Source: Oceanospirillum multiglobuliferum
GTDB taxonomy: Bacteria > Pseudomonadota > Gammaproteobacteria > Pseudomonadales > Halomonadaceae
Direction of reading: 5' to 3'
Assembly (NCBI RefSeq): GCF_900167095.1
Contig: NZ_FUXG01000005.1
Span: 120,075 to 184,074 of the forward strand
DNA: 64,000 nt
The position numbers were made by a program, and so were the translations under genes. Positions 53,104-64,000 of this stretch are shown here, piece by piece. The notes beneath the pieces were generated by a model. The model was given only the letters and a program-made list of their open reading frames with translations, was not told the origin of the DNA and did not search any database. How positions within the stretch are numbered: position 1 is the first letter of the stretch; every line of letters begins with the position of its first letter.

Positions 53104-56100
53104 ATGGCCTCACCTAATCAAACCTCTAATTTTGATTTCTTGGCAGAGCACGACCCCTTGTTTGTCGAACTGGCACTCTCAGCGGAACGCGCTTTTGCCA
53201 GCGACCCCAACACCACGCTGATAAAACTACGTCAACTAGGCGAAGCCCTTGCCCAGCATCTTGCAGTGTTAGCAGGAATCACCTTTGATGGCCAAACGTC
53301 ACAGGCTGATCTGCTCTATAAAATTAACCGCGAGTTAAAACTAGAGCCAGTGGTGCGAGAGCTGTTTCATACGCTACGGATTGAAGGCAACAAAGCCACG
53401 CATCAATTTAAAACACAGCACAAAGAAGCGATTAACGGTCTTGTTGTTGCCCGCAAACTCGCCATTTGGTTTCACCAGTCCTTTGGTAAAGCGGGGGTTC
53501 AATTTAAACCCAGCCCCTTTGTTGCATTCACTGACCCCAGCGAACAACTGCGTAAACTGCAAACCGAGATGGCACAACTCAAAAATGAGTTACAGCAAGC
53601 CAATATCGACTTGGGTTCAAGCCAGCAACTGAACGAACTGATCGCCAAAGAAAAAGAGGAATACGAAGCACTTGCCCACGCGATGGATGAAGAGTCTCGT
53701 ACCTTAGCGCAGCAAGCCGCACAACATGAGCAGGCACTTCGCCAACAGCAGCAAACCTACGAAGCCAAAATCAAAGCATTACAGGCTCAACTGGCAACGC
53801 AAGATGACAAAGCCCAAGCCAACCAGCGGCAACAACTTAGCCGCAATACACAAGCCGCCACTCAGCATATTGTACTGGATGAAGCCTTAACCCGTATCTT
53901 GATAGACCAACAACTGATCGAAGCGGGTTGGCAAGCCGACAGTGAGTCACTCAGTTTCAAACAGGGTACTCGCCCTGAAAAAGGCCAAAACCTTGCCATT
54001 GCCGAGTGGCCAACGCAATACAAAGGGCAGAAAGGCCGAGCAGACTATGTACTCTTTGCAGGCTTAACCCCTATTGCCGTAGTGGAAGCCAAAAAAGAAA
54101 ACACCAATGTCGCAGGCAAAATCGCTCAAGCTGAACGCTACAGCAAAGGTTTAAGTGTTACTCCGCCTTTAATTCCCGCTTGGGCGCTACAAGGGATGAC
54201 CATTGCTTGGCCTGATGATGAAGAAGGGCATTACAACATCCCATTTGTTTACTCCTGCAATGGTCGGCCCTATGTACCGCAATTGGCCGAACAATCGGGT
54301 ACTTGGTTTCGTGATCTGCGCCATCCTGCCAATCTGAAACGTGCGCTGCCGAGTTTTCACACACCAGACGGGCTACTTGACCTGTTAAAGCGCAGTAAAG
54401 AGGCCGCGCAACGCACGTTACAGGCCGAGCCTTTTGGCTATTTAAAAGTGCGTGATTATCAGCAAAAAGCCATTAACGCGGTTGAAAACACATTGGCTCA
54501 AGAGGTGCGTAGCGCCCTATTGGCAATGGCAACAGGCACAGGTAAAACGCGCACCATTATTGGCCTGATGTACCGTTTTTTAAAAGCCGAGCGTTTCAAG
54601 CGCATCTTGTTTTTGGTGGATCGCACTGCATTAGGACAGCAAGCCCTTGACGCTTTCAATGAAGCGCCATTGGAACAGAACCATAGCCTCTCCAAGATTT
54701 ACAACGTGGCAGAGTTAGGTGATATGGCCGCAGAGGCCGAAACCCGTGTGCAGGTTGCCACCGTACAAGCGATGGTGAAACGCATTTTTATGAGCGACAA
54801 TCCGCCGCCCATTGATCAATTTGACTGCATTATCATCGACGAAGCGCACCGAGGTTACACCCTAGATCAAGAGATGACCGAAGGCGAACTGGCCACCCGA
54901 GAGGTTAGCCAATACCTGTCCAGCTATCGCCGTGTGCTGGACTATTTTGATGCCTTTAAAATCGGCCTAACCGCCACGCCAGCGAAACACACCAGTGATA
55001 TTTTTGGTAAACCTGTTTACACCTACTCCTACCGAGAGGCAGTGGCCGATGATTGGCTGATTGATCACGAACCGCCCATTCGCTACGAAACCCTGCTCAC
55101 CCAGAACGGTATCCGTTTTGATAAGGGTGAAACCATCAGCGCCATCAATACCCAAACGGGCGAAGTGCAAAGTGCCGAGCTAGAAGATGAGCTGAGTTTT
55201 GAAGTAGACGCATTTAACCGTCAGGTGATCAACGAAAACTTTAACCGAGTGATCTGTGAACAGTTAGTACAAGAGCTTGACCCCTTTGGGGATGAAAAGA
55301 CCTTGATCTTCTGCGCCACCGACCTACATGCGGATATGGTTAAGCGCCTATTAGACCAAGCCTTTAAAGACCTCTACAACGGTGAATACAACCAAGCTGC
55401 CGTGGCTAAAATTACAGGCCAAAGCGACAAAGTGGCGCAACTGATCCGCCAGTATAAAAACGAACGCTACCCCAATATTGCCATCACCGTAGACCTACTC
55501 ACCACAGGGATCGACGTGCCCAAAATTTGCAACTTGGTATTTATGCGTCGAGTAAAATCACGCATCTTGTACGAGCAGATGATGGGGCGCGCCACTCGCC
55601 GCTGTGACGAAATTGGTAAAACAGTGTTTCGCATCTACGACCCCGTTGATATTTATGCAGCGTTGGATGACGTGAACACCATGAAACCACTGGTGAAAGA
55701 CCCCAACATCAGCTTGGCGCAACTGGTGACAGAGATCAGCAACCCAGAGCAACTAGAGCGCGCACTGAACGCCCCCGGTGACTCACCCGAGCAAAGCCAT
55801 GCCGACGTGGTACTGAGCCAACTGAGCCAAAAAGTGATGCGCGTGTTACGAAAAGCAGAGAACAAAGCCGACAACAACCCCGCGTTGAAACAAAAGCTAG
55901 ATGAGCTGCACAACCTATGGGGCGTTGAACCCAAAAGCCTGCACACACATCTACAGCAGTTGGGGCCAAGGCAAGCAGCGGATTTTATCAGCCAGCACAG
56001 CGGACTGCTTAACCAGCTAACAGAGGTGAACCGCTTATTGGGCAGCGAGCGCCAACCCGTGATTTCAGAGCACCACGACGAACTACGTGAACGCAGCCAA

Positions 56101-56637
56101 AGCTATGGCGTACACCAAAAGCCAGAAGATTACTTGGACAGCTTTAATCAGTTTATCCAACAGCAAATCAACCAAAATGCCGCGCTCTCAGTGGTGGTGA
56201 ACAAACCCCGCGACCTCACCCGCGAACAACTTAAAGAGATCAAACTACTACTAGATGGCGCAGGTTACAGCGAAGTTAAACTGCAAAGCGCCATCCGCAA
56301 CCAAACCAACCAAGACATTGCCGCCAGCATCGTCGGCCATATTCGCCGTGCGGCATTTGGTGAACCTTTAGTTCCCTTTGAACAACGCATCGCACAGGCC
56401 ATGCAGCGCCTTTACCAACGCCATAACTGGCAACCCGCTCAACGTAAATGGTTAGAGCGCCTAGCCAAACAACTGGTGCATGAAGTGATCGTCGACCGCG
56501 AGTTTGTGAACCAGCGCTTTGCCGAACAAGGCGGCGCCAAGCAGTTCGACAAGGCACTGAACAATCAACTGGATACCGTACTGGAAGAACTCAGCGACGC
56601 CATTTGGCCAGCTGTTGTTGCGAGTAATAAGTTTTAA
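53104..56637 (+). CDS. hsdR: Type I restriction enzyme subunit R (HsdR)
   Basis: Motor and nuclease subunit of a type I system, 1177 residues. Order: a DUF4145-like N-terminal region (about 12-125), a coiled coil (about 155-245), a PD-(E/D)xK nuclease with G-R-A-D-Y and V-V-E-A-K (near 310-328), and a superfamily 2 helicase with A-T-G-T-G-K-T (about 475), D-E-A-H (about 576), T-A-T-P and Q-M-M-G-R-A-T-R-R. It cuts unmodified DNA after translocation, with HsdM2S. GGAG lies before the ATG. Its stop overlaps the start of the next small gene (TAATG). No breaks are seen, so it should be active. Confidence 0.96.
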   Translation: MASPNQTSNFDFLAEHDPLFVELALSAERAFASDPNTTLIKLRQLGEALAQHLAVLAGITFDGQTSQADLLYKINRELKLEPVVRELFHTLRIEGNKATHQFKTQHKEAINGLVVARKLAIWFHQSFGKAGVQFKPSPFVAFTDPSEQLRKLQTEMAQLKNELQQANIDLGSSQQLNELIAKEKEEYEALAHAMDEESRTLAQQAAQHEQALRQQQQTYEAKIKALQAQLATQDDKAQANQRQQLSRNTQAATQHIVLDEALTRILIDQQLIEAGWQADSESLSFKQGTRPEKGQNLAIAEWPTQYKGQKGRADYVLFAGLTPIAVVEAKKENTNVAGKIAQAERYSKGLSVTPPLIPAWALQGMTIAWPDDEEGHYNIPFVYSCNGRPYVPQLAEQSGTWFRDLRHPANLKRALPSFHTPDGLLDLLKRSKEAAQRTLQAEPFGYLKVRDYQQKAINAVENTLAQEVRSALLAMATGTGKTRTIIGLMYRFLKAERFKRILFLVDRTALGQQALDAFNEAPLEQNHSLSKIYNVAELGDMAAEAETRVQVATVQAMVKRIFMSDNPPPIDQFDCIIIDEAHRGYTLDQEMTEGELATREVSQYLSSYRRVLDYFDAFKIGLTATPAKHTSDIFGKPVYTYSYREAVADDWLIDHEPPIRYETLLTQNGIRFDKGETISAINTQTGEVQSAELEDELSFEVDAFNRQVINENFNRVICEQLVQELDPFGDEKTLIFCATDLHADMVKRLLDQAFKDLYNGEYNQAAVAKITGQSDKVAQLIRQYKNERYPNIAITVDLLTTGIDVPKICNLVFMRRVKSRILYEQMMGRATRRCDEIGKTVFRIYDPVDIYAALDDVNTMKPLVKDPNISLAQLVTEISNPEQLERALNAPGDSPEQSHADVVLSQLSQKVMRVLRKAENKADNNPALKQKLDELHNLWGVEPKSLHTHLQQLGPRQAADFISQHSGLLNQLTEVNRLLGSERQPVISEHHDELRERSQSYGVHQKPEDYLDSFNQFIQQQINQNAALSVVVNKPRDLTREQLKEIKLLLDGAGYSEVKLQSAIRNQTNQDIAASIVGHIRRAAFGEPLVPFEQRIAQAMQRLYQRHNWQPAQRKWLERLAKQLVHEVIVDREFVNQRFAEQGGAKQFDKALNNQLDTVLEELSDAIWPAVVASNKF

Positions 56638-56888
56638 TGAAGCTTAGCAAAGGAAATAAACTGATGGAATATATAGTAAAATTAACAATAGTCACTTTGT
56701 TAATGTCGCACCGAGAAATAAGGCGGCTATTTTACGCATTTTTTGGAATGCTGCTGTTTTATACTTTTTTATTTATTTTCTCTACTATTTCTAGCCCTCT
56801 ATTCGCTAGTGATGATAGCCGAAGACTAATCTTAGGTTGCAAGCAGTTGTTAGCGCAATGCACTGATCAATCAATGATAGCTCTGTAA
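56637..56888 (+). CDS. Small membrane protein coupled to hsdR (unknown)
   Basis: An 83-residue frame whose ATG overlaps the hsdR stop (TAATG). It is more AT-rich than hsdR. It holds two hydrophobic stretches: about 10-24 (Y-I-V-K-L-T-I-V-T-L-L) and a stronger one at about 32-52 (F-Y-A-F-F-G-M-L-L-F-Y). Two Cys occur near the end. An inner start at 56664 is possible. Its stop codon lies in the loop of a hairpin that covers the ribosome binding site of the next gene. I do not recognise a family; it may be a leader-type gene or a real accessory protein. Confidence 0.45.
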   Translation: MKLSKGNKLMEYIVKLTIVTLLMSHREIRRLFYAFFGMLLFYTFLFIFSTISSPLFASDDSRRLILGCKQLLAQCTDQSMIAL

Positions 56889-56906
56889 TCATAAAGCGGA
56901 GCTATC
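56876..56906 (+). promoter_or_regulatory. Hairpin covering the zinc-ribbon gene's ribosome binding site
   Basis: GATAGCTC (56876-56883) and GAGCTATC (56899-56906) are perfect complements. The GGAG Shine-Dalgarno sequence (56898-56901) of the next gene lies in the 3' arm, and the stop codon of the 83-residue frame lies in the loop. Confidence 0.6.
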
Positions 56907-56909
56907 TTT

Positions 56910-57266
56910 ATGTACTATTCAATTCAATGTATTAGCCAGCGCACTGGCCAACTCCTCAAAACTTATCAATTTAAATTTTCAGACGATCAGGCAGCAAACC
57001 AAACCAGCTTAACTCTTGGTAAAGCAATAGTTTCCTACCAATGTGACCGCTGTAGTTACTGGCATCTTTGCCCTGAAGAGCGCCACACTCCTAGCGAAAC
57101 TTGCCACTATTGCACCAGTGGAGAAGGAAAACCTAAGCAACTTTATACCAGCTATCAGAGTGCCAAGAGGCGCGCGAATTGTCTCTTTCATGAAAAAAAA
57201 TTACGGCTCTCTATTTATGAATGTCGCTACCAGCATGGTTGGCACCTCACTAAGTCTGGCAATTAA
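56910..57266 (+). CDS. Zinc-ribbon protein in the hsd cassette (unknown)
   Basis: A 118-residue basic protein with two similar motifs: Y-Q-C-D-R-C-S-Y-W-H-L-C (about 43-54) and Y-E-C-R-Y-Q-H-G-W-H-L-T-K (about 103-115), plus C-H-Y-C (about 65-68). The Cys/His pattern predicts one or two zinc ribbons of the kind found in small plasmid, phage and island proteins ending in ...G-W-H-L-T. It may bind nucleic acid or serve as partner of the radical SAM enzyme that starts 10 bases later. No closer family is recognised. Confidence 0.7.
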   Translation: MYYSIQCISQRTGQLLKTYQFKFSDDQAANQTSLTLGKAIVSYQCDRCSYWHLCPEERHTPSETCHYCTSGEGKPKQLYTSYQSAKRRANCLFHEKKLRLSIYECRYQHGWHLTKSGN

Positions 57267-57276
57267 GGGGGGAAAT

Positions 57277-58572
57277 ATGAATAAGCACATCATATTCATC
57301 TCCGTAGACTGGGAGCGTCCACAAGATGGGCGTTCAAACCTAGGTGCTGCTTCAATACTGGCGTCATTAAAGCGAGCAGGTATTTGTTATACGCTGATTG
57401 AAGGTGCGGTGAATGCCCCAGATTTCAGCTACAAGGCGTTAGAGACACAAGTTTTAGACACAATTTATGCGCTTGAAGTAAAGGGTATCGGCTGTCTGGT
57501 CGGTATAGGAGCCTACATCTGGAACGAGCCTATTACCCAGCAGTTGACGGAAGTGATTCACAACTCAACATCAGCCCCAATTGTATTAGGTGGTCCACAG
57601 GTTTCGTATGCCGAAGCCGGAACACTGGAGACTTTATACCCATACGCCAATATTTTCGTGCGAGGACATGGTGAACAAGCAATGGTGTTACTGGCTAAAG
57701 ATGAAAGCGTACAAGGGCAAGGCATTCATTTTGCAGGTCAAACCGACCTTGGGCTAAAGTCAGAAATCTCGTTAAAACAGTTGGCTTCGCCTTGGCTTAC
57801 TGGCGTGATGAATGTTGGTCAGTCCATCCGTTGGGAAACTATGCGTGGTTGCCCTTTCCGTTGTAGCTTCTGCCAGCATAGAGAGTCGGGTAACCGCTTC
57901 AAATTGACGGAACAACAACTCGACTATGAGCGTATCAGCAAAGAAGTAAGGCTGTTTGCGCAGGCAGGTGTTGAGCGCATATCCATCCTAGACCCTATCT
58001 TTCATCTAGATACAAAGCGTGCCGTTGATCTGTTGACTCTGTTTAAAGAGGTTGGTTTGAACGCAAAACTCGCCTTGCAGTGTCGTTTTGAGTCTGTGAA
58101 AGACGAATTCCTCGATGCGCTGGAAGGTCTCAATGTTGTGCTTGAATTCGGGCTGCAAACCGCTATCAAGAAGGAAGGGGATGCCATTGGCCGACCAAAC
58201 AATCTAGTGATGGCAGAGCGCGTGATAGAAAAGCTCAAGGCACGTCATATACAGTTTGAAGTATCGCTGATATATGGGTTGCCAGAACAGACGTTAGAGA
58301 GTTTTCGCGAGTCGTTAAGCTGGTGCTGGAGTCAGCAGGTTCCCGTTATCCGCGCTTGGCCTCTGATGATTTTGCGTGGCACTGTGCTCGACAAACAACG
58401 AGAACAGTTCGGTTTTATTGAATCAGCTGATGAAGCGATACCGCATGTTATAGCCAGTAACAGTTTTACCCCCGAAGACTACCGTCAGATGGAGGCGCTC
58501 GCACAAGCGGCGAACTTATCTGAAACTCAAACACTAAAGGAGATAAACAATGCCGTTTTTTATCGTGCTTGA
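57277..58572 (+). CDS. B12-binding-type radical SAM enzyme in the hsd cassette
   Basis: A 431-residue radical SAM protein. The N-terminal part (about 1-145) resembles a cobalamin-binding Rossmann domain (N-L-G-A-A-S-I-L-A-S-L near 20; V-L-G-G-P-Q-V-S near 105; V-R-G-H-G-E-Q-A). The cluster motif C-P-F-R-C-S-F-C (about 192-199) follows in the typical R-G-C-P-F-R-C context, and the TIM-barrel strands continue (V-L-E-F-G-L-Q-T, Y-G-L-P-E-Q-T). Substrate is unknown. The start at 57277 has AAGGGGGG upstream. The kinase gene overlaps its end by 23 bases. The viperin-like C-G-F-C-F-H signature is absent. Confidence 0.88.
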   Translation: MNKHIIFISVDWERPQDGRSNLGAASILASLKRAGICYTLIEGAVNAPDFSYKALETQVLDTIYALEVKGIGCLVGIGAYIWNEPITQQLTEVIHNSTSAPIVLGGPQVSYAEAGTLETLYPYANIFVRGHGEQAMVLLAKDESVQGQGIHFAGQTDLGLKSEISLKQLASPWLTGVMNVGQSIRWETMRGCPFRCSFCQHRESGNRFKLTEQQLDYERISKEVRLFAQAGVERISILDPIFHLDTKRAVDLLTLFKEVGLNAKLALQCRFESVKDEFLDALEGLNVVLEFGLQTAIKKEGDAIGRPNNLVMAERVIEKLKARHIQFEVSLIYGLPEQTLESFRESLSWCWSQQVPVIRAWPLMILRGTVLDKQREQFGFIESADEAIPHVIASNSFTPEDYRQMEALAQAANLSETQTLKEINNAVFYRA

Positions 58573-59119
58573 AGGGCTAGACGGTGTCGGCAAAAGCACA
58601 CTTGCCCGTCGCTTTGCTCAACAGTATGGATACCAACTGATGACTACTCCGGGATCAGAACTACTGCCTATACGAGCAGATATCATTCACGGACTTGGCA
58701 GCAGTGAAACTGCGAAGGCACTTTTTTATGCTGCTACCGTGCAGGCTGAAGGTGAAAAAGTACAGGGTTTGATTCAGAGTGGTCAAAGTGTACTGATGGA
58801 TCGCTACCGAGCCTCAACCATTGCCTATGCAAATGAACGAGGTGTCACGCTTGATCTCTCTTTTGTGTTGAGTCGGGCATACCAACCGCACCTGAGTATA
58901 TTATTGACGCTTGATGAGTCCGAACGACAACTTAGGTTGCAAAAGCGAGGGGCGACGGCAGAAGATATCGAAACCCTGAATCCTGCGTTCAGAGTAGGTG
59001 TGCTGAACAAGTTGCAGGCTCAATGCGACGTGATGCTAGATCTGACCGGTGCCAATGAGGATAAGGCCGTCGACTTGCTTCATGATTGCATCAATGCTCA
59101 TTTGCGTGTAGGTCTATAA
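58550..59119 (+). CDS. Thymidylate-kinase-like P-loop kinase in the hsd cassette
   Basis: A 189-residue nucleotide kinase of the Tmk type, slightly shorter than housekeeping enzymes (about 210). Motifs: P-loop E-G-L-D-G-V-G-K-S-T (about 8-17), M-D-R-Y-R-A-S-T-I-A-Y (the D-R-Y motif, about 83-93) and a lid with Q-L-R-L-Q-K-R-G-A-T. It would phosphorylate dTMP or another (deoxy)nucleotide, perhaps one altered by the radical SAM partner; that is inference. GGAGAT lies before the ATG, and the 23-base overlap with the upstream gene indicates coupled synthesis. Confidence 0.88.
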   Translation: MPFFIVLEGLDGVGKSTLARRFAQQYGYQLMTTPGSELLPIRADIIHGLGSSETAKALFYAATVQAEGEKVQGLIQSGQSVLMDRYRASTIAYANERGVTLDLSFVLSRAYQPHLSILLTLDESERQLRLQKRGATAEDIETLNPAFRVGVLNKLQAQCDVMLDLTGANEDKAVDLLHDCINAHLRVGL

Positions 59120-59289
59120 AATCTTGTAACACACCAGTCGTTATCTTGAAGCGTTTCTATAATGTTGTCTTTAACAGTATTGACTTGATTCACGATACTT
59201 TGAACTCTATATTTGCGGCCAACATACCCGCCAAGCCTATGGTTGCTTGCAACTATGCTCAAATCGTGCGGGTTTTTTATGCCCGTCAT
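59098..59289 (-). CDS. Possible small antisense gene between kinase and hsdM
   Basis: A minus-strand frame of 63 codons from ATG 59289 (open from TTG 59310). Its translation reads like a natural protein (N-P-H-D-L-S-I-V-A-S-N-H-R-L, then V-N-T-V-K-D-N-I-I-E-T-L). It overlaps the kinase gene tail by 22 bases. No good ribosome binding site is seen, and no family is recognised. The 225-base stretch between kinase and hsdM otherwise holds no gene. Confidence 0.28.
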   Translation of the reverse strand: MTGIKNPHDLSIVASNHRLGGYVGRKYRVQSIVNQVNTVKDNIIETLQDNDWCVTRFYRPTRK

Positions 59290-59344
59290 CTGTAGAAGCC
59301 GTTTCAGCAAGACCTATTTTGGCAGGACACCTAACGAGAAATTT

Positions 59345-60916
59345 ATGACCCACAACGACATCGTACAAAAACTCTGGAACCTATGTGACGTACTGCGTGA
59401 CGACGGCATTAACTACAGCGACTACGTCACCGAGTTGGTACTGCTGCTGTTTATCAAAATGGTGCATGAGAACACCGAAGCGGGCACCCTAAAAAAGCAC
59501 CCATTACCTGAAGGTTGTCGCTGGACGGATATTAACGACAAATCAGGTATTAACCTGCTTAACGATTACAAAATCATCTTACTGAGCTTATCGACAGGCA
59601 AAAACGCAGAGGGTACGCTGATTCACGAAGACCCGCTGATCAGCGCCATTTACGCCGATGCCCAAACCCGCCTGCGTGAACCGCGCCACCTAGAGCAAAT
59701 GATTAAAACCCTAGACCAAATCGACTGGTTTAGCGCCCAAAAAGATGGCCTAGGCGACCTATACGAAGGCTTGCTAGAAAAGAACGCCAGCGAAACCAAA
59801 TCAGGCGCGGGGCAATATTTTACCCCCCGTGCGCTGATCAACAGCATGGTGCGTTGCATACAGCCGCAAACGGGCGAAGTGATTCAAGACCCAGCCGCAG
59901 GCACCGCAGGCTTTTTGGTGGCGGCTGACCAATATATGCGCGAGCACACCGATGATTACTTTGACCTGTCCAGCAAAGAGGCCGAGTTTCAAAAGCACAA
60001 AGCCTTTGTTGGTGTTGAACTGGTGCCCAACACCCGCCGTTTAGCCCTAATGAACTGCTTACTGCATGGCATGGAAGGTGACAATGAAGGCGTGGTGCAT
60101 CTGGGTAATGCCCTAGGCGAAGCGGGAAAAGCCTTACCGCCTGCGGATATTATTTTGGCAAACCCACCTTTTGGCACCAGCAAAGGCGGTGAAGCCTCTA
60201 ACACCCGTGACGACCTCACCTACAAAACCAGTAACAAACAACTGGCGTTTTTACAGCACATCTACCGCAACCTAAAACCCGGTGGCCGTGCAGCGGTGGT
60301 ATTGCCAGATAACGTATTGTTTGAAGCAGGCGTCGGCACCGACGTGCGCCGCGACCTGATGAACAAATGCAACCTGCACAGCATATTGCGCCTACCTACG
60401 GGGATTTTTTACGCCCAAGGGGTGAAAACCAACGTACTGTTTTTCACCAAAGGCAGCGCCAGCGACAAACTGCAACAAGAAGACTGCACCCACAAAGTAT
60501 GGGTGTACGACCTACGCACCAACATGCCCAGCTTTGGCAAACGCACCCCCTTTGGTGATAGCCACTTAGCGCCTTTTGAAGCGGTGTATGGCGATAACCC
60601 TAACGGCACCAGTGAGCGCACAGAGGGCGAATACAGCTTTGGGGCTGAAGAGATTGCCGTTGATAAATCTGCCAGTGCAGAAAACCAAGGCATTGACGAC
60701 AAGCTGTTACACAGCCGTTGGCGCTGTTTTAGCCGTGACTGGATACGGGAAACCAAGGGCGACTCGTTGGATATTTCATGGTTAAAAGACCAAGACAGCG
60801 TAGATGCGGCAGACCTGCCGGAGCCTGCCGTATTGGCGATGGAAGCCAAAGAAGAACTGAGCGCGGCATTGAGTGAGTTAGAAGGCTTATTGGCGGCATT
60901 GGAAGGGGCGAATTGA
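59345..60916 (+). CDS. hsdM: Type I DNA methyltransferase subunit M (HsdM)
   Basis: Adenine-N6 methyltransferase subunit, 523 residues. N-terminal helical domain (about 5-130), then G-A-G-Q-Y-F-T-P-R (about 155-163), SAM motif I D-P-A-A-G-T-A-G-F (about 181-189) and the catalytic N-P-P-F-G (about 273-277). It works as HsdM2S and protects self DNA. The frame runs upstream to 59213, but ATG 59345 begins M-T-H-N-D-I-V-Q-K-L-W-N-L as in homologues. It is 225 bases after the kinase gene, and its stop overlaps the hsdS start. Confidence 0.97.
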   Translation: MTHNDIVQKLWNLCDVLRDDGINYSDYVTELVLLLFIKMVHENTEAGTLKKHPLPEGCRWTDINDKSGINLLNDYKIILLSLSTGKNAEGTLIHEDPLISAIYADAQTRLREPRHLEQMIKTLDQIDWFSAQKDGLGDLYEGLLEKNASETKSGAGQYFTPRALINSMVRCIQPQTGEVIQDPAAGTAGFLVAADQYMREHTDDYFDLSSKEAEFQKHKAFVGVELVPNTRRLALMNCLLHGMEGDNEGVVHLGNALGEAGKALPPADIILANPPFGTSKGGEASNTRDDLTYKTSNKQLAFLQHIYRNLKPGGRAAVVLPDNVLFEAGVGTDVRRDLMNKCNLHSILRLPTGIFYAQGVKTNVLFFTKGSASDKLQQEDCTHKVWVYDLRTNMPSFGKRTPFGDSHLAPFEAVYGDNPNGTSERTEGEYSFGAEEIAVDKSASAENQGIDDKLLHSRWRCFSRDWIRETKGDSLDISWLKDQDSVDAADLPEPAVLAMEAKEELSAALSELEGLLAALEGAN

Positions 60917-62268
60917 TGAGTGAGGTTAATTTGCCGGAGGGGTGGGTGACTGCCACTGTAGCTGATATAAATGATTATAAATCGTCAAATATGCAGCCTA
61001 AGAGTCATATAGGTACAACTTTTGAGCTGTACAGTGTTCCAATCTTTCCTGAAGGGAAACCAGAAATACTACAGGCAGAAGAGATAGGCTCTAGTAAACA
61101 GTTTGTTAGTGAAAATGATGTTTTGGTCTGTAAAATTAATCCAAGAATAAATCGTGTATGGCGTGTAGCCTCAGCTCAAAATCTTGGACAAATAGCGTCA
61201 TCTGAATGGATTGTTGTCAGGCAAAAGCGTTTAAATACACAATATTTAACTTGGTATTTTCAGTCTGAAGACTTTAGAACGCGGCTGTGTGCAGATGTAA
61301 CAGGAGTTGGTGGTTCCTTAACAAGAGCGCAACCAAAACAAGTAGCAAAATTTACTTTGCCACTCCCCCCCCTAGCCGAACAAAAAGTCATCGCAGACAA
61401 ACTCGACACCCTGCTGGCACAAGTGGAAACCACCAAAGCCCGCCTTGACCGTATCCCCAATATTCTAAAACGCTTCCGCCAATCGGTATTGGCAGCGGCA
61501 GTGAGTGGGAAATTGACGGAGGAGTGGCGGGAGTTTCTACAGTTTGCAACAAAGAAGGGTGCCCTATGTGATTTCGTCTCAATAGATATAGGACATGCTT
61601 TCAAAAGTAAGGAGTTTACGGATTCAGGTGTAAAATTATTACGAGGACAAAATATAGAACCTGGGGCGCTCAAATGGGATGAAACCAGATATTTTCCCAT
61701 AGAAAAGCTTGAGGAGCATTCAAACCTATTTATACGTGCTAATGATATTATTCTAGCGATGGATCGCCCAATAATCTCGACTGGCCTAAAACTAGCTCGT
61801 GCTAAAGAAAAGGATTTACCATGTGTACTAGTACAACGTGTAGCTCGATTCACTAAGTTTGATGGTCTTCAGCCAGATTATCTATTTCTGTTATTACGAG
61901 ATATTGCATTTAGTAACTATATCCAACCCAATCAGACTGGTAGCGATATTCCACACATAAGTGGTAGGCAAATTCTTGCATATGAAATACAAGTTCCTTC
62001 AATCGAAGAACAAACCGAAATCGTCCGCCGTGTTGAAGAATTATTCGCCTTTGCCGACCGCATTGAAGAAAAAGCCAATGCCGCTCTTGAGCGGGTGAAT
62101 AACCTGACCCAATCCATCCTCGCCAAAGCCTTCCGTGGTGAACTCACTGCCGACTGGCGCGCCACCAACCCTGATTTAATCAGCGGTGACAACAGTGCAG
62201 AGGCACTACTCGCCAAGATCAAAGCCGAGCGAGCCGCCACAAAGCCTGTGAAGAAAAAGCGTCAGTAG
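60916..62268 (+). CDS. hsdS: Type I specificity subunit S (HsdS)
   Basis: DNA-recognition subunit, 450 residues. Two target-recognition domains are seen: about 6-150 and about 212-360, each ending in a conserved helical spacer (L-P-P-L-A-E-Q-K-V-I-A-D-K-L near 156 and I-E-E-Q-T-E-I-V-R-R-V-E-E-L near 363). The two domains differ, so the site should be bipartite and asymmetric. The recognition domains are AT-rich against GC-richer spacers, typical of exchange by recombination. The ATG overlaps the hsdM stop; a TTG three bases earlier is less likely. The site itself cannot be read from sequence. Confidence 0.95.
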   Translation: MSEVNLPEGWVTATVADINDYKSSNMQPKSHIGTTFELYSVPIFPEGKPEILQAEEIGSSKQFVSENDVLVCKINPRINRVWRVASAQNLGQIASSEWIVVRQKRLNTQYLTWYFQSEDFRTRLCADVTGVGGSLTRAQPKQVAKFTLPLPPLAEQKVIADKLDTLLAQVETTKARLDRIPNILKRFRQSVLAAAVSGKLTEEWREFLQFATKKGALCDFVSIDIGHAFKSKEFTDSGVKLLRGQNIEPGALKWDETRYFPIEKLEEHSNLFIRANDIILAMDRPIISTGLKLARAKEKDLPCVLVQRVARFTKFDGLQPDYLFLLLRDIAFSNYIQPNQTGSDIPHISGRQILAYEIQVPSIEEQTEIVRRVEELFAFADRIEEKANAALERVNNLTQSILAKAFRGELTADWRATNPDLISGDNSAEALLAKIKAERAATKPVKKKRQ

Positions 62269-62278
62269 GTGTAAGTTT

Positions 62279-62983
62279 ATGAGCGAGATTTATAACGTCT
62301 ATTGTGATGAGTCCTGTCATTTAGAGAATGACGGTGAAAAGGCGATGGTGTTGGGCGGTGTTTGGTGCCCAGAGAGTAAGCGAAAAGAGATCAGCCAAAG
62401 AGTCCGTGATATCAAGGTGAAACATGGCTTAGGAAAAAGTTTTGAGATTAAATGGACTAAAGTGAGCCAATCAAAATTGGCCTTTTACATGGAGATCATT
62501 GATTATTTTTTTGATGATGATGACTTCCACTTTAGAGGTCTGATTGTGCCGGACAAAGCGCAACTCAACCATGAGACGTGGGGGCAAACGCACGACGATT
62601 GGTACTATAAAATGTACTTCACCATGCTCAAGGTGATATTTGAACCTCAGGCAAGATACCGCGTGTATTTGGATATTAAAGATACGCAAGGCGCTGATAA
62701 AATTAAAAAACTCCATGAGGTGCTTTGCCATAACTCATACGATTTTTCTCGTCGGATGATAGAAAGGGTTCAGCAAATTCATTCCCATGAATCAGAGCAG
62801 TTGCAAGTCGCCGATTTGCTTATTGGGGCTTTATCGTATTTGCATCGAGACTTGTCAACAAACGCAGCGAAACTTAAGTTAATTGAGAGAATAAAACAAA
62901 GAAGCCAGTATCGACTGACCTGCAATACCTTGCTGCGTGAGAATAAATTTAATTTGTTGATTTGGAGTGGAGGAGCGCTATGA
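62279..62983 (+). CDS. DUF3800 protein (RNase-H-like fold)
   Basis: A 234-residue DUF3800 protein. The family's acidic residues are visible: Y-C-D-E-S-C near the N-terminus (about 8-13), Y-L-D-I-K-D-T (about 137-143) and L-Q-V-A-D-L-L-I-G-A (about 178-187), which together suggest an RNase H/RuvC-like active site. These genes are common in defence islands and mobile elements; the biological role is not settled. It is 10 bases after hsdS. Its stop overlaps the next start (ATGA). Confidence 0.85.
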   Translation: MSEIYNVYCDESCHLENDGEKAMVLGGVWCPESKRKEISQRVRDIKVKHGLGKSFEIKWTKVSQSKLAFYMEIIDYFFDDDDFHFRGLIVPDKAQLNHETWGQTHDDWYYKMYFTMLKVIFEPQARYRVYLDIKDTQGADKIKKLHEVLCHNSYDFSRRMIERVQQIHSHESEQLQVADLLIGALSYLHRDLSTNAAKLKLIERIKQRSQYRLTCNTLLRENKFNLLIWSGGAL

Positions 62984-63477
62984 CAATGGATGTCTTGCCA
63001 GACTGGCTCCCTGAACTTATTTACTTAAATGATTATGGTGGAGATTGGTCACAATATTTTGATGAAGTCTATCGGCTATTCTGTGTTGACTTTGTTGATG
63101 ATAAACCACTGTTTCGAGGGTTGCGCTTAGGCTTAAAGCGTCATCCAGAGTATGCGGGTAAGTCTGCAACTTTTTGGCACATGATTAGCGAGGGTAGTGA
63201 AGAGTCTGAGCGTACGCCAGACCTTAGGCGTTGTGAGCGTATCACTTGGCCTCGCGCCCATATTGAGAACGATGCGGATTCACGGCTAAAAATTTGGGTT
63301 GAAAAGCGAGGCCCAGATAAGCGCGTTCATATTTGGCATGAAAAAGCTGAATATTTAGTCGTGCTCAATAAGCGCAAAGATTACATTTTACCTTGGACTG
63401 CTTATACAGTTGAAAGGTCGCATGAAAAAGTGAAATTAAATAAGCGATGGGAAAGAAATAAGCTAGAAGAACTTTAG
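62980..63477 (+). CDS. Small basic partner protein of DUF3800 (unknown)
   Basis: A 165-residue protein rich in Arg, Lys, Trp and Glu, with no membrane segment. The C-terminal half (V-H-I-W-H-E-K-A-E-Y-L-V-V-L, then L-P-W-T-A-Y-T-V) has a strand pattern that recalls BECR-type RNase toxins, but the match is weak. The start at 62980 overlaps the DUF3800 stop by 4 bases; the frame opens earlier at 62962. The tight pairing suggests the two act together, for example as effector and partner. Confidence 0.7.
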   Translation: MTMDVLPDWLPELIYLNDYGGDWSQYFDEVYRLFCVDFVDDKPLFRGLRLGLKRHPEYAGKSATFWHMISEGSEESERTPDLRRCERITWPRAHIENDADSRLKIWVEKRGPDKRVHIWHEKAEYLVVLNKRKDYILPWTAYTVERSHEKVKLNKRWERNKLEEL

Positions 63478-63703: not shown

Positions 63704-63750
63704 CCTCGCCCAATCGGGCGGGGATACAAGCGGGAACCGCGCAGCGGTTC
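63704..63750. mobile_element. IS200/IS605 terminal hairpins
   Basis: Two adjacent hairpins: an 8-bp stem at 63704-63723 (CCTCGCCC/GGGCGGGG, 4-base loop) and a 7-bp stem at 63734-63750 (GAACCGC/GCGGTTC, 3-base loop). They abut the 3' end of the transposase gene, where IS200/IS605 elements keep the subterminal hairpins recognised by TnpA. Confidence 0.6.
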
Positions 63751-64000
63751 TAATCAGGTGTCGCCTGACTTTGCACATACTCTTTCAGTGTTTTGATCGT
63801 TGCCCCGCCTGCACTGCAGGCAAAGTAAGAACGTGACCAGAGCGCTGCACTTTTGCTTTGCCGGGGGATATGGGTATTGAGTATGCGTATCCGGCGTGAT
63901 GAAACCGATTTCAGGTTGTTCACCATGACGCTGATCGCCAGCTTCGGCGGATAAGCTATCAGCAGGTGAACATGATCTGATTCACCGTCCATTTCCAGTA
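63750..64000 (-). CDS. tnpA: IS200/IS605-family transposase TnpA (partial)
   Basis: C-terminal part of a Y1 HUH single-strand transposase; the gene continues past the window edge. The HUH motif is in S-D-H-V-H-L-L-I (His-Val-His) and the catalytic Tyr in L-K-E-Y-V-Q-S-Q. The phrase A-L-W-S-R-S-Y-F-A-C-S-A-G-G-A-T lies between, as in the family. The stop TAG is at 63752-63750. Only about 83 of the usual 130-150 residues are visible, so completeness cannot be judged. Confidence 0.92.
   Translation of the reverse strand, partial: LEMDGESDHVHLLIAYPPKLAISVMVNNLKSVSSRRIRILNTHIPRQSKSAALWSRSYFACSAGGATIKTLKEYVQSQATPD

Follow-up and report, generated by a model that had tools for sequence, protein, structure and literature searches.

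A catalogued radical SAM-kinase defence candidate carried between hsdR and hsdM in Oceanospirillum multiglobuliferum

Viperins are known immune radical S-adenosylmethionine (SAM) enzymes that make antiviral nucleotides, and they carry the cluster motif CNxKCGFCFH. In prokaryotes they stand in a defence setting beside a thymidylate kinase (TMK)-like enzyme, VakA (viperin-associated kinase), and have members with and without the kinase; their products are ddh-nucleotides made from CTP, GTP or UTP; the PADLOC collection holds a viperin model "not associated with kinases" beside its VakA model. A further point of comparison is provided by OxsB and AlsB, cobalamin radical SAM enzymes which, according to an excerpt of PMC13331322, turn deoxyadenosine nucleotides into nucleoside analogues. 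The partners of these two enzymes are the phosphohydrolase OxsA and a second radical SAM enzyme, AlsA, and not a kinase. Here we describe a radical SAM-kinase pair situated between the hsdR and hsdM genes of a type I restriction operon in a 64-kb stretch of the O. multiglobuliferum genome (assembly GCF_900167095.1, contig NZ_FUXG01000005.1, positions 120,075 to 184,074; hereafter the window).

The pair consists of two genes that overlap by 23 bases, and the ATG of the first, at 57277, is preceded by AAGGGGGG:

57277..58572, + strand: B12-type radical SAM gene, 431 amino acids, PDC-M51A (PF04055, E=3e-16; PF02310, E=1.2e-8)
58550..59119, + strand: thymidylate-kinase-like nucleotide kinase gene, 189 amino acids, PDC-M51B (PF02223, E=2.1e-16)

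They are accompanied by a gene for a zinc-ribbon-like protein, whose stop lies 10 bases before the radical SAM ATG, and surrounded by hsdR, hsdM and hsdS, each near-full-length by PADLOC match. All reading frames of the cassette and the operon are present on the + strand, which bears out the gene order and common orientation given for the hsdR-hsdM interval in the earlier note on this DNA:

53104..56637, + strand: hsdR, type I restriction subunit, upstream border of the slot (PADLOC REase_I, E=6.9e-268; NCBIfam NF008521, 1624 bits)
56910..57266, + strand: zinc-ribbon-like protein, 118 amino acids (CxxC pairs, WHLCP and GWHLTK motifs, by eye)
59345..60916, + strand: hsdM, type I methylase, downstream border of the slot (PADLOC MTase_I, E=5.8e-220)
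60913..62268, + strand: hsdS, specificity subunit (PADLOC Specificity_I, E=4e-127)

Both enzymes match PADLOC models of one catalogued defence candidate, PDC-M51, which agrees with the defensive role that had been proposed for them. The radical SAM protein matches PDC-M51A with E=1.2e-169 (residues 3-418 onto 4-416 of 420) and the kinase matches PDC-M51B with E=8.7e-68 (residues 1-185 onto 1-184 of 191). The near-full-length matches to both models, the adjacency of the genes and the embedding in a restriction system are shared with PDC-M51; the window adds the zinc-ribbon gene and a scar of the abortive infection gene abiD, described below, and nothing excludes membership. Judged by these profile matches, the pair is already catalogued and the cassette is a member of PDC-M51 rather than a new system. 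An excerpt of PMC12988326 traces such candidates to a study based on "guilt-by-embedding", for which it cites Payne et al. 2024, bioRxiv. No functional study or naming of PDC-M51 was found in the literature searched, bioRxiv preprints being outside its scope, nor was such an enzyme pair described in connection with defence in the literature listings; a term search did not find "radical SAM" in the main text of the DefensePredictor paper (PMC13092281).

The cassette may be viperin-like in its logic, and its kinase does match the VakA model (E=2.8e-21), but its radical SAM enzyme is not a viperin. The viperin model pVip PDLC02903 gives only E=0.046 (11.2 bits), the cluster motif reads CPFRCSFCQH, the enzyme has an extra cobalamin-type domain, and its structural match to viperins is confined to the radical SAM core. 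We therefore rejected viperin membership, and the absence of a viperin signature reported by the earlier note stands.

The closest structural relatives are cobalamin radical SAM enzymes, which the protein matches along its whole length. An AlphaFold2 (AF2) model (predicted local distance difference test, pLDDT, 86) has the fold of CysS, TokK, AprD4, TsrM and OxsB, with an N-terminal Rossmann domain of the cobalamin type; the structural match and PF02310 together uphold the cobalamin-like domain first noticed by inspection. In a conservation count of 77 rows, with L040 left out and residues numbered as in alignment A1 (the protein's own number + 1), the CxxxCxxC cysteines C193, C197 and C200 are invariant (77/77), and so is W83 (77/77), which aligns to TokK W76. 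The latter residue fills the lower axial space of cobalamin, according to an excerpt of PMC9692996. The enzyme is thus predicted, from the alignment and the model, to bind and use cobalamin, and a supply in the host is likely because its genome encodes a MetH-type protein (PF02965, 421.8 bits). The methylases TokK and CysS, which act on antibiotic precursors, are 681 and 645 amino acids long as against 431 for the window enzyme, and their C-terminal part is absent from the latter. OxsB shares the core fold at 15% identity and differs by an additional domain at the N terminus and by a C-terminal one.

The kinase is a paralogue, since the host genome has a separate canonical tmk gene elsewhere. 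Its AF2 model (pLDDT 95) is most similar to deoxythymidine monophosphate (dTMP) kinases, and the P-loop, DR and LID residues are intact. It differs from canonical Tmk in scoring 66.5 bits against TIGR00041, below the equivalog cut-off of 83.25, and in lacking the base-site arginine, which we take to have a role in thymine binding; by eye, the alignment shows this arginine in none of 26 pair kinases, which have Thr, Ser or Asp instead, whereas the host's own Tmk retains it.

The conservation of the pair, which had been named as a check, was examined by scanning one genome per species; at least 79 loci with a radical SAM homologue were found in Pseudomonadota, Myxococcota, Planctomycetota, Bacteroidota, archaea and others. 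The locus genes were called by a simple longest-open-reading-frame (ORF) script, which is error-prone in GC-rich genomes. A TMK-like kinase adjoins the radical SAM gene in 25 of the 79 listed loci; in 41 of the remaining 54 each flank is 700 bases or longer, and in 13 at least one flank is shorter. Distances among the 25 kinases correlate with those among their radical SAM partners (Mantel r=0.80, with none of 2000 shuffles as high). Because the listed radical SAM homologues are 48-100% identical (120 matches listed) and these distances are correlated, we consider the pairing, as far as genome comparison can tell, to be far more than chance, and the pair is kept across phyla. On a radical SAM tree the TMK label changes 12 times, at least nine of these on well-supported branches, and labelled rows fall on both sides of the midpoint root. 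This tree omits L074, L075, L077, L086 and the tmk locus, as well as additional views of the window and of L002 and L062; the count of changes omits 13 rows; L084, a second view of L007, is unlabelled in the tree and labelled in the count. Locus L036, titled as a Klebsiella pneumoniae metagenome-assembled genome, has just a short kinase-like stretch beside its radical SAM gene, possibly a decayed kinase; the name of this record looks doubtful, given the position of its protein in the tree.

In two loci, from Sulfurovum (L051) and Chlorobiota (L065), the TMK-like kinase is replaced by an adenylate-kinase (ADK)-type protein (PF00406, E=6.5e-31 and 3.1e-26, respectively). Their sequences agree at 44% of 147 positions, and a second adk-type PF00406 gene is present in both genomes, so that these too are paralogues, next to the radical SAM gene:

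L051, 3054-3620: ADK-type paralogue
L065, 11232-11720: ADK-type paralogue

Two families of nucleoside monophosphate (NMP) kinase beside one enzyme family are the best sequence evidence for the involvement of a nucleotide, and the discovery of the second family strengthens the case for nucleotide chemistry, which we regard as plausible for this pair. The recurrence of NMP kinases, the correlated divergence of the pair members and the missing TokK/CysS C-terminal part also bear on another explanation, namely that the enzyme modifies a macromolecule or metabolite which is not a nucleotide, the kinase being a regulator driven by nucleoside triphosphate or acting on an unrelated phosphoacceptor. 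All three argue against it, and we consider it unlikely, even with the closest solved relatives (CysS, TokK, TsrM and MgmA) using non-nucleotides and most listed homologues having no visible kinase.

To the established gene order, family memberships, conserved pairing, cargo slot and catalytic motifs we would add a mechanism that is conjectural as to the nucleotide substrate, the product, which of the two enzymes acts first and any effect on viruses. The radical SAM enzyme, a predicted cobalamin binder, would alter a nucleotide, for example by methylation or rearrangement; the kinase would then phosphorylate the altered nucleotide towards the triphosphate, and this would block phage polymerases, poisoning replication or transcription. 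We give about even chances to the cassette being an autonomous embedded PDC-M51 defence module, the cargo of the hsdR-hsdM slot, that makes a toxic nucleotide. More tentatively, and with less than even confidence, it may be a cobalamin-dependent counterpart of viperin, in which an enzyme of the TokK/OxsB class would make an antiviral nucleotide inside the cell, to be activated by the NMP kinase that it has recruited (in the paired loci mostly TMK-like, in some cases ADK-like), the set being exchanged as cargo of the hsdR-hsdM slot.

Several observations weigh against this proposal. No kinase of either type is visible beside 52 of the 79 listed homologues (12 of these having less than 700 bases on one side); either the kinase is not needed, or the enzyme may have another type of substrate. 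Solved enzymes of the fold include several with non-nucleotide substrates (carbapenem precursors, tryptophan, protein glutamine), and AprD4, though of the same fold, is to our knowledge a non-cobalamin enzyme. The loss of the base-site arginine is the reading of an alignment. Finally, no N6 methylase was found within ~10 kb of the pair in 20 of 24 pair genomes, and distant loci, kinase-linked and kinase-less alike, show scattered defence neighbours in PADLOC tallies of the 25 commonest families.

Relatives of the operon show what else can occupy the position of the cassette. A close hsdR is present in 43 of the 390 genomes of the order, the host's own included, and we examined the best 20 of the 42 other matches (L118-L137), which are not a random draw. 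Cargo is found in all 20 slots: SoFic in 12, AbiLi with AbiLii in six and AbiD in two, as named by PADLOC for 10 proteins from eight slots and by similarity for the others; the radical SAM gene and the kinase are absent from all 20. The slot in Oceanobacter mangrovi (L001), whose hsdR and hsdM share 76% and 77% identity with those of the window, contains further ORFs followed by the zinc-ribbon, radical SAM, kinase, AbiLi and AbiLii genes. In L002 the cassette is kept, together with an AbiL pair (identities of 87% and 46% to that of L001), beside an hsdR reduced to a 330-residue C-terminal part, and no hsdM relative was detected at this locus; in L003 no hsd relative was detected in the view of the cassette locus. 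We conclude from these comparisons that the slot is exchangeable and that the cassette is cargo there. Because the slots vary and L002 keeps the cassette without an hsdM relative, it probably acts on its own, without need for the restriction enzyme. L002 and L003 led us to discard the restriction operon as a general requirement, and where the earlier note suggested that the set may act with or back up the restriction enzyme, any need for that enzyme is unsupported, no such methylase having been found within ~10 kb in 20 of 24 pair genomes.

Proximity to methylase genes of the hsdM type is above expectation, a point which had also been put forward for checking. An N6 (hsdM-type) methylase lies within ~10 kb of the pair in four of the 24 genomes (L001, L007, L008 and L009) where the number of methylases and the size of the genomes predict 0.17 (tail 1.8e-5; cut-off 100 bits, span 21.3 kb); the test leaves out L064 of the 25 pair genomes, and methylases were located by coordinate, with a check against the loci. 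In L009 the methylase, some 9.3 kb away from the radical SAM gene, extends past the end of the locus. The company that the cassette keeps is also what renders highly doubtful a fourth explanation, in which a metabolic or natural-product pathway (nucleoside antibiotic, cofactor salvage) is merely hitch-hiking in the operon. The OxsB/AlsB precedent does belong to a small-molecule pathway, and the kinase fold is of a housekeeping type; set against this, the genes scanned in 53104-63474 are, with the exception of the zinc-ribbon ORF and a small one, hsd and candidate defence genes, defence genes fill the best 20 of 42 sister slots, and the distribution is patchy. The radical SAM gene occurs in five of 390 genomes of the order and two of 369 of the class, the host's own counted in both. 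Spread by plasmids or phages was considered and dropped, as no match was obtained in either at the limits used, and so was carriage on viral contigs (11 pattern matches, none a relative).

The 225 bases between the kinase gene and hsdM are occupied by two remnants:

59227..59273, + strand: abiF RNA (RF03085) with no abiD/abiF gene adjoining (34.8 bits, E=7e-4)
59305..59334, + strand: 3' end remnant of abiD, last codons and stop (DNA alignment to L118, the end of which was translated)

In L118 and L124 the abiD cargo has a leader to which window positions 59154-59289 are 78-84% identical at the DNA level, and the abiD remnant sits in a 97-base stretch 85.6% identical to L118 2373-2468; the abiD body that should lie between leader and tail is absent. 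The RNA falls slightly short of the gathering score (37), and so do the copies beside real abiD genes (34.9 and 34.7 bits), and its core is near-identical in the window, L118 and L124, with differing flanks. Among 144 loci the exact core was found only in views of the window and in the two AbiD slots, it occurs once in the host genome, and no match to the RNA was obtained at E<=0.5 in L143, L001, L002 or L003. The host has another AbiD gene far off on the same contig (206 bits), with no abiF RNA match nearby, and a 20-bit partial match on another contig. From these alignments it is likely that abiF RNA and abiD once occupied the slot, that the radical SAM cassette then came in and that abiD disappeared. 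Promoter-like sites number three in the region where 4.6 are expected by chance, and an hsdM promoter in the gap was rejected.

Other genes adjoin the pair in a proportion of the loci. Zinc-ribbon homologues 48-50% identical to that of the window, which itself matches no family above cut-off in Pfam, PADLOC or NCBIfam, immediately precede the radical SAM gene in L001, L002 and L003, and one of 40% identity is divergent from it in L031; the protein is possibly a regulator or sensor. Small ParE-like proteins, possibly toxins or regulators, adjoin the pair in six loci, upstream in L060, L062, L064 and L069 and downstream of the kinase in L008 and L009 (PF24732 being named in L008). An unnamed family of 215-265 amino acids lies upstream in six loci, and was found only with kinase-linked pairs among the loci searched:

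L001, 8913-9560: unnamed 215-265 amino acid family
L002, 8112-8762: the same family
L008, 9098-9895: the same family
L009, 9134-9895: the same family
L058, 8629-9288: the same family
L062, 2076-2753: the same family

The profiles for these three families were built from members which they then found, and the only independent finds are L031 (zinc ribbon), L062 (215-265 amino acid family) and L016 (weak, ParE-like). No accessory family is universal. Such proteins could be the effectors or sensors of a defence module with another output, one in which the altered nucleotide is a signal, or a mark in the cell's own DNA or RNA, and poisons no polymerase. PDC-M51 membership and the slot context fit this equally well, but no effector recurs in all loci, and L003 has the zinc-ribbon gene alone as a same-strand neighbour of more than 100 amino acids among the nearest ORFs called; we judge this output improbable and prefer the toxic nucleotide.

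Among the kinase-less homologues, L063 (9983-14683) has a HamA gene (Hachiman) directly after the radical SAM gene, the long ORF behind it being likely HamB, and L057 has a WYL protein and an N6 methylase as neighbours. Single matches to HamB, SoFic and PDC-S25 were obtained among 93 neighbours of such homologues; the neighbour tallies are led by PD-T4-6 and other kinase models, which are little informative. In four Desulfobacterales loci (L044, L045, L056 and L071) a kinase-less radical SAM gene is followed by a two-gene set, of which, in L056, the first encodes a tetratricopeptide repeat (TPR) protein and the second lacks any Pfam match.

The remaining features of the operon in the window are as follows:

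56637..56888, + strand: small hydrophobic ORF, 83 amino acids, doubtful gene (1-base overlap with the end of hsdR)
62279..62983, + strand: DUF3800 protein behind hsdS, PADLOC candidate PDC-M04A (E=2e-100; PF12686)
62974..63477, + strand: partner protein, PADLOC candidate PDC-M04B (E=8.7e-73)

The small ORF, which the earlier note counted as a membrane protein of the cassette, ends 21 bases before the zinc-ribbon ORF. Neither Pfam nor PADLOC yields a match to it at E<=0.1, its only NCBIfam match (12.7 bits) is far under the cut-off, and it has no relative among the ORFs of the loci compared; it may not be a gene for these reasons, and we do not retain it as a conserved component. A 26-base match to L001 falls within it. 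The spacing of 10-23 bases given for the interval is correct inside the cassette and fails between kinase and hsdM, where the 225 bases intervene. PDC-M04A/B (62279-63477) constitute a second embedded defence candidate in the same operon, and an ORF at 63750-63992 (- strand), near the end of the window and contig, presumably resembles part of an IS200/IS605-type transposase.

What is new here is the exchangeable slot among hsdR relatives, with AbiL, AbiD or SoFic as alternatives, and the AbiD scar (abiF RNA and the last abiD codons) in the window; together they are a direct record of restriction operons swapping accessory defences. New, too, are the CysS/TokK/OxsB fold of the radical SAM enzyme with its invariant TokK-type tryptophan, the finding of TMK-like kinases beside 25 of the 79 listed homologues and of ADK-type ones beside two, and the lack of the base-site arginine in the pair kinases. 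If the proposed counterpart of viperin is real, a second, B12-dependent radical SAM family would have taken up a viperin-type role, meaning that the strategy arose more than once, and new nucleotide-analogue chemistry would be on offer.

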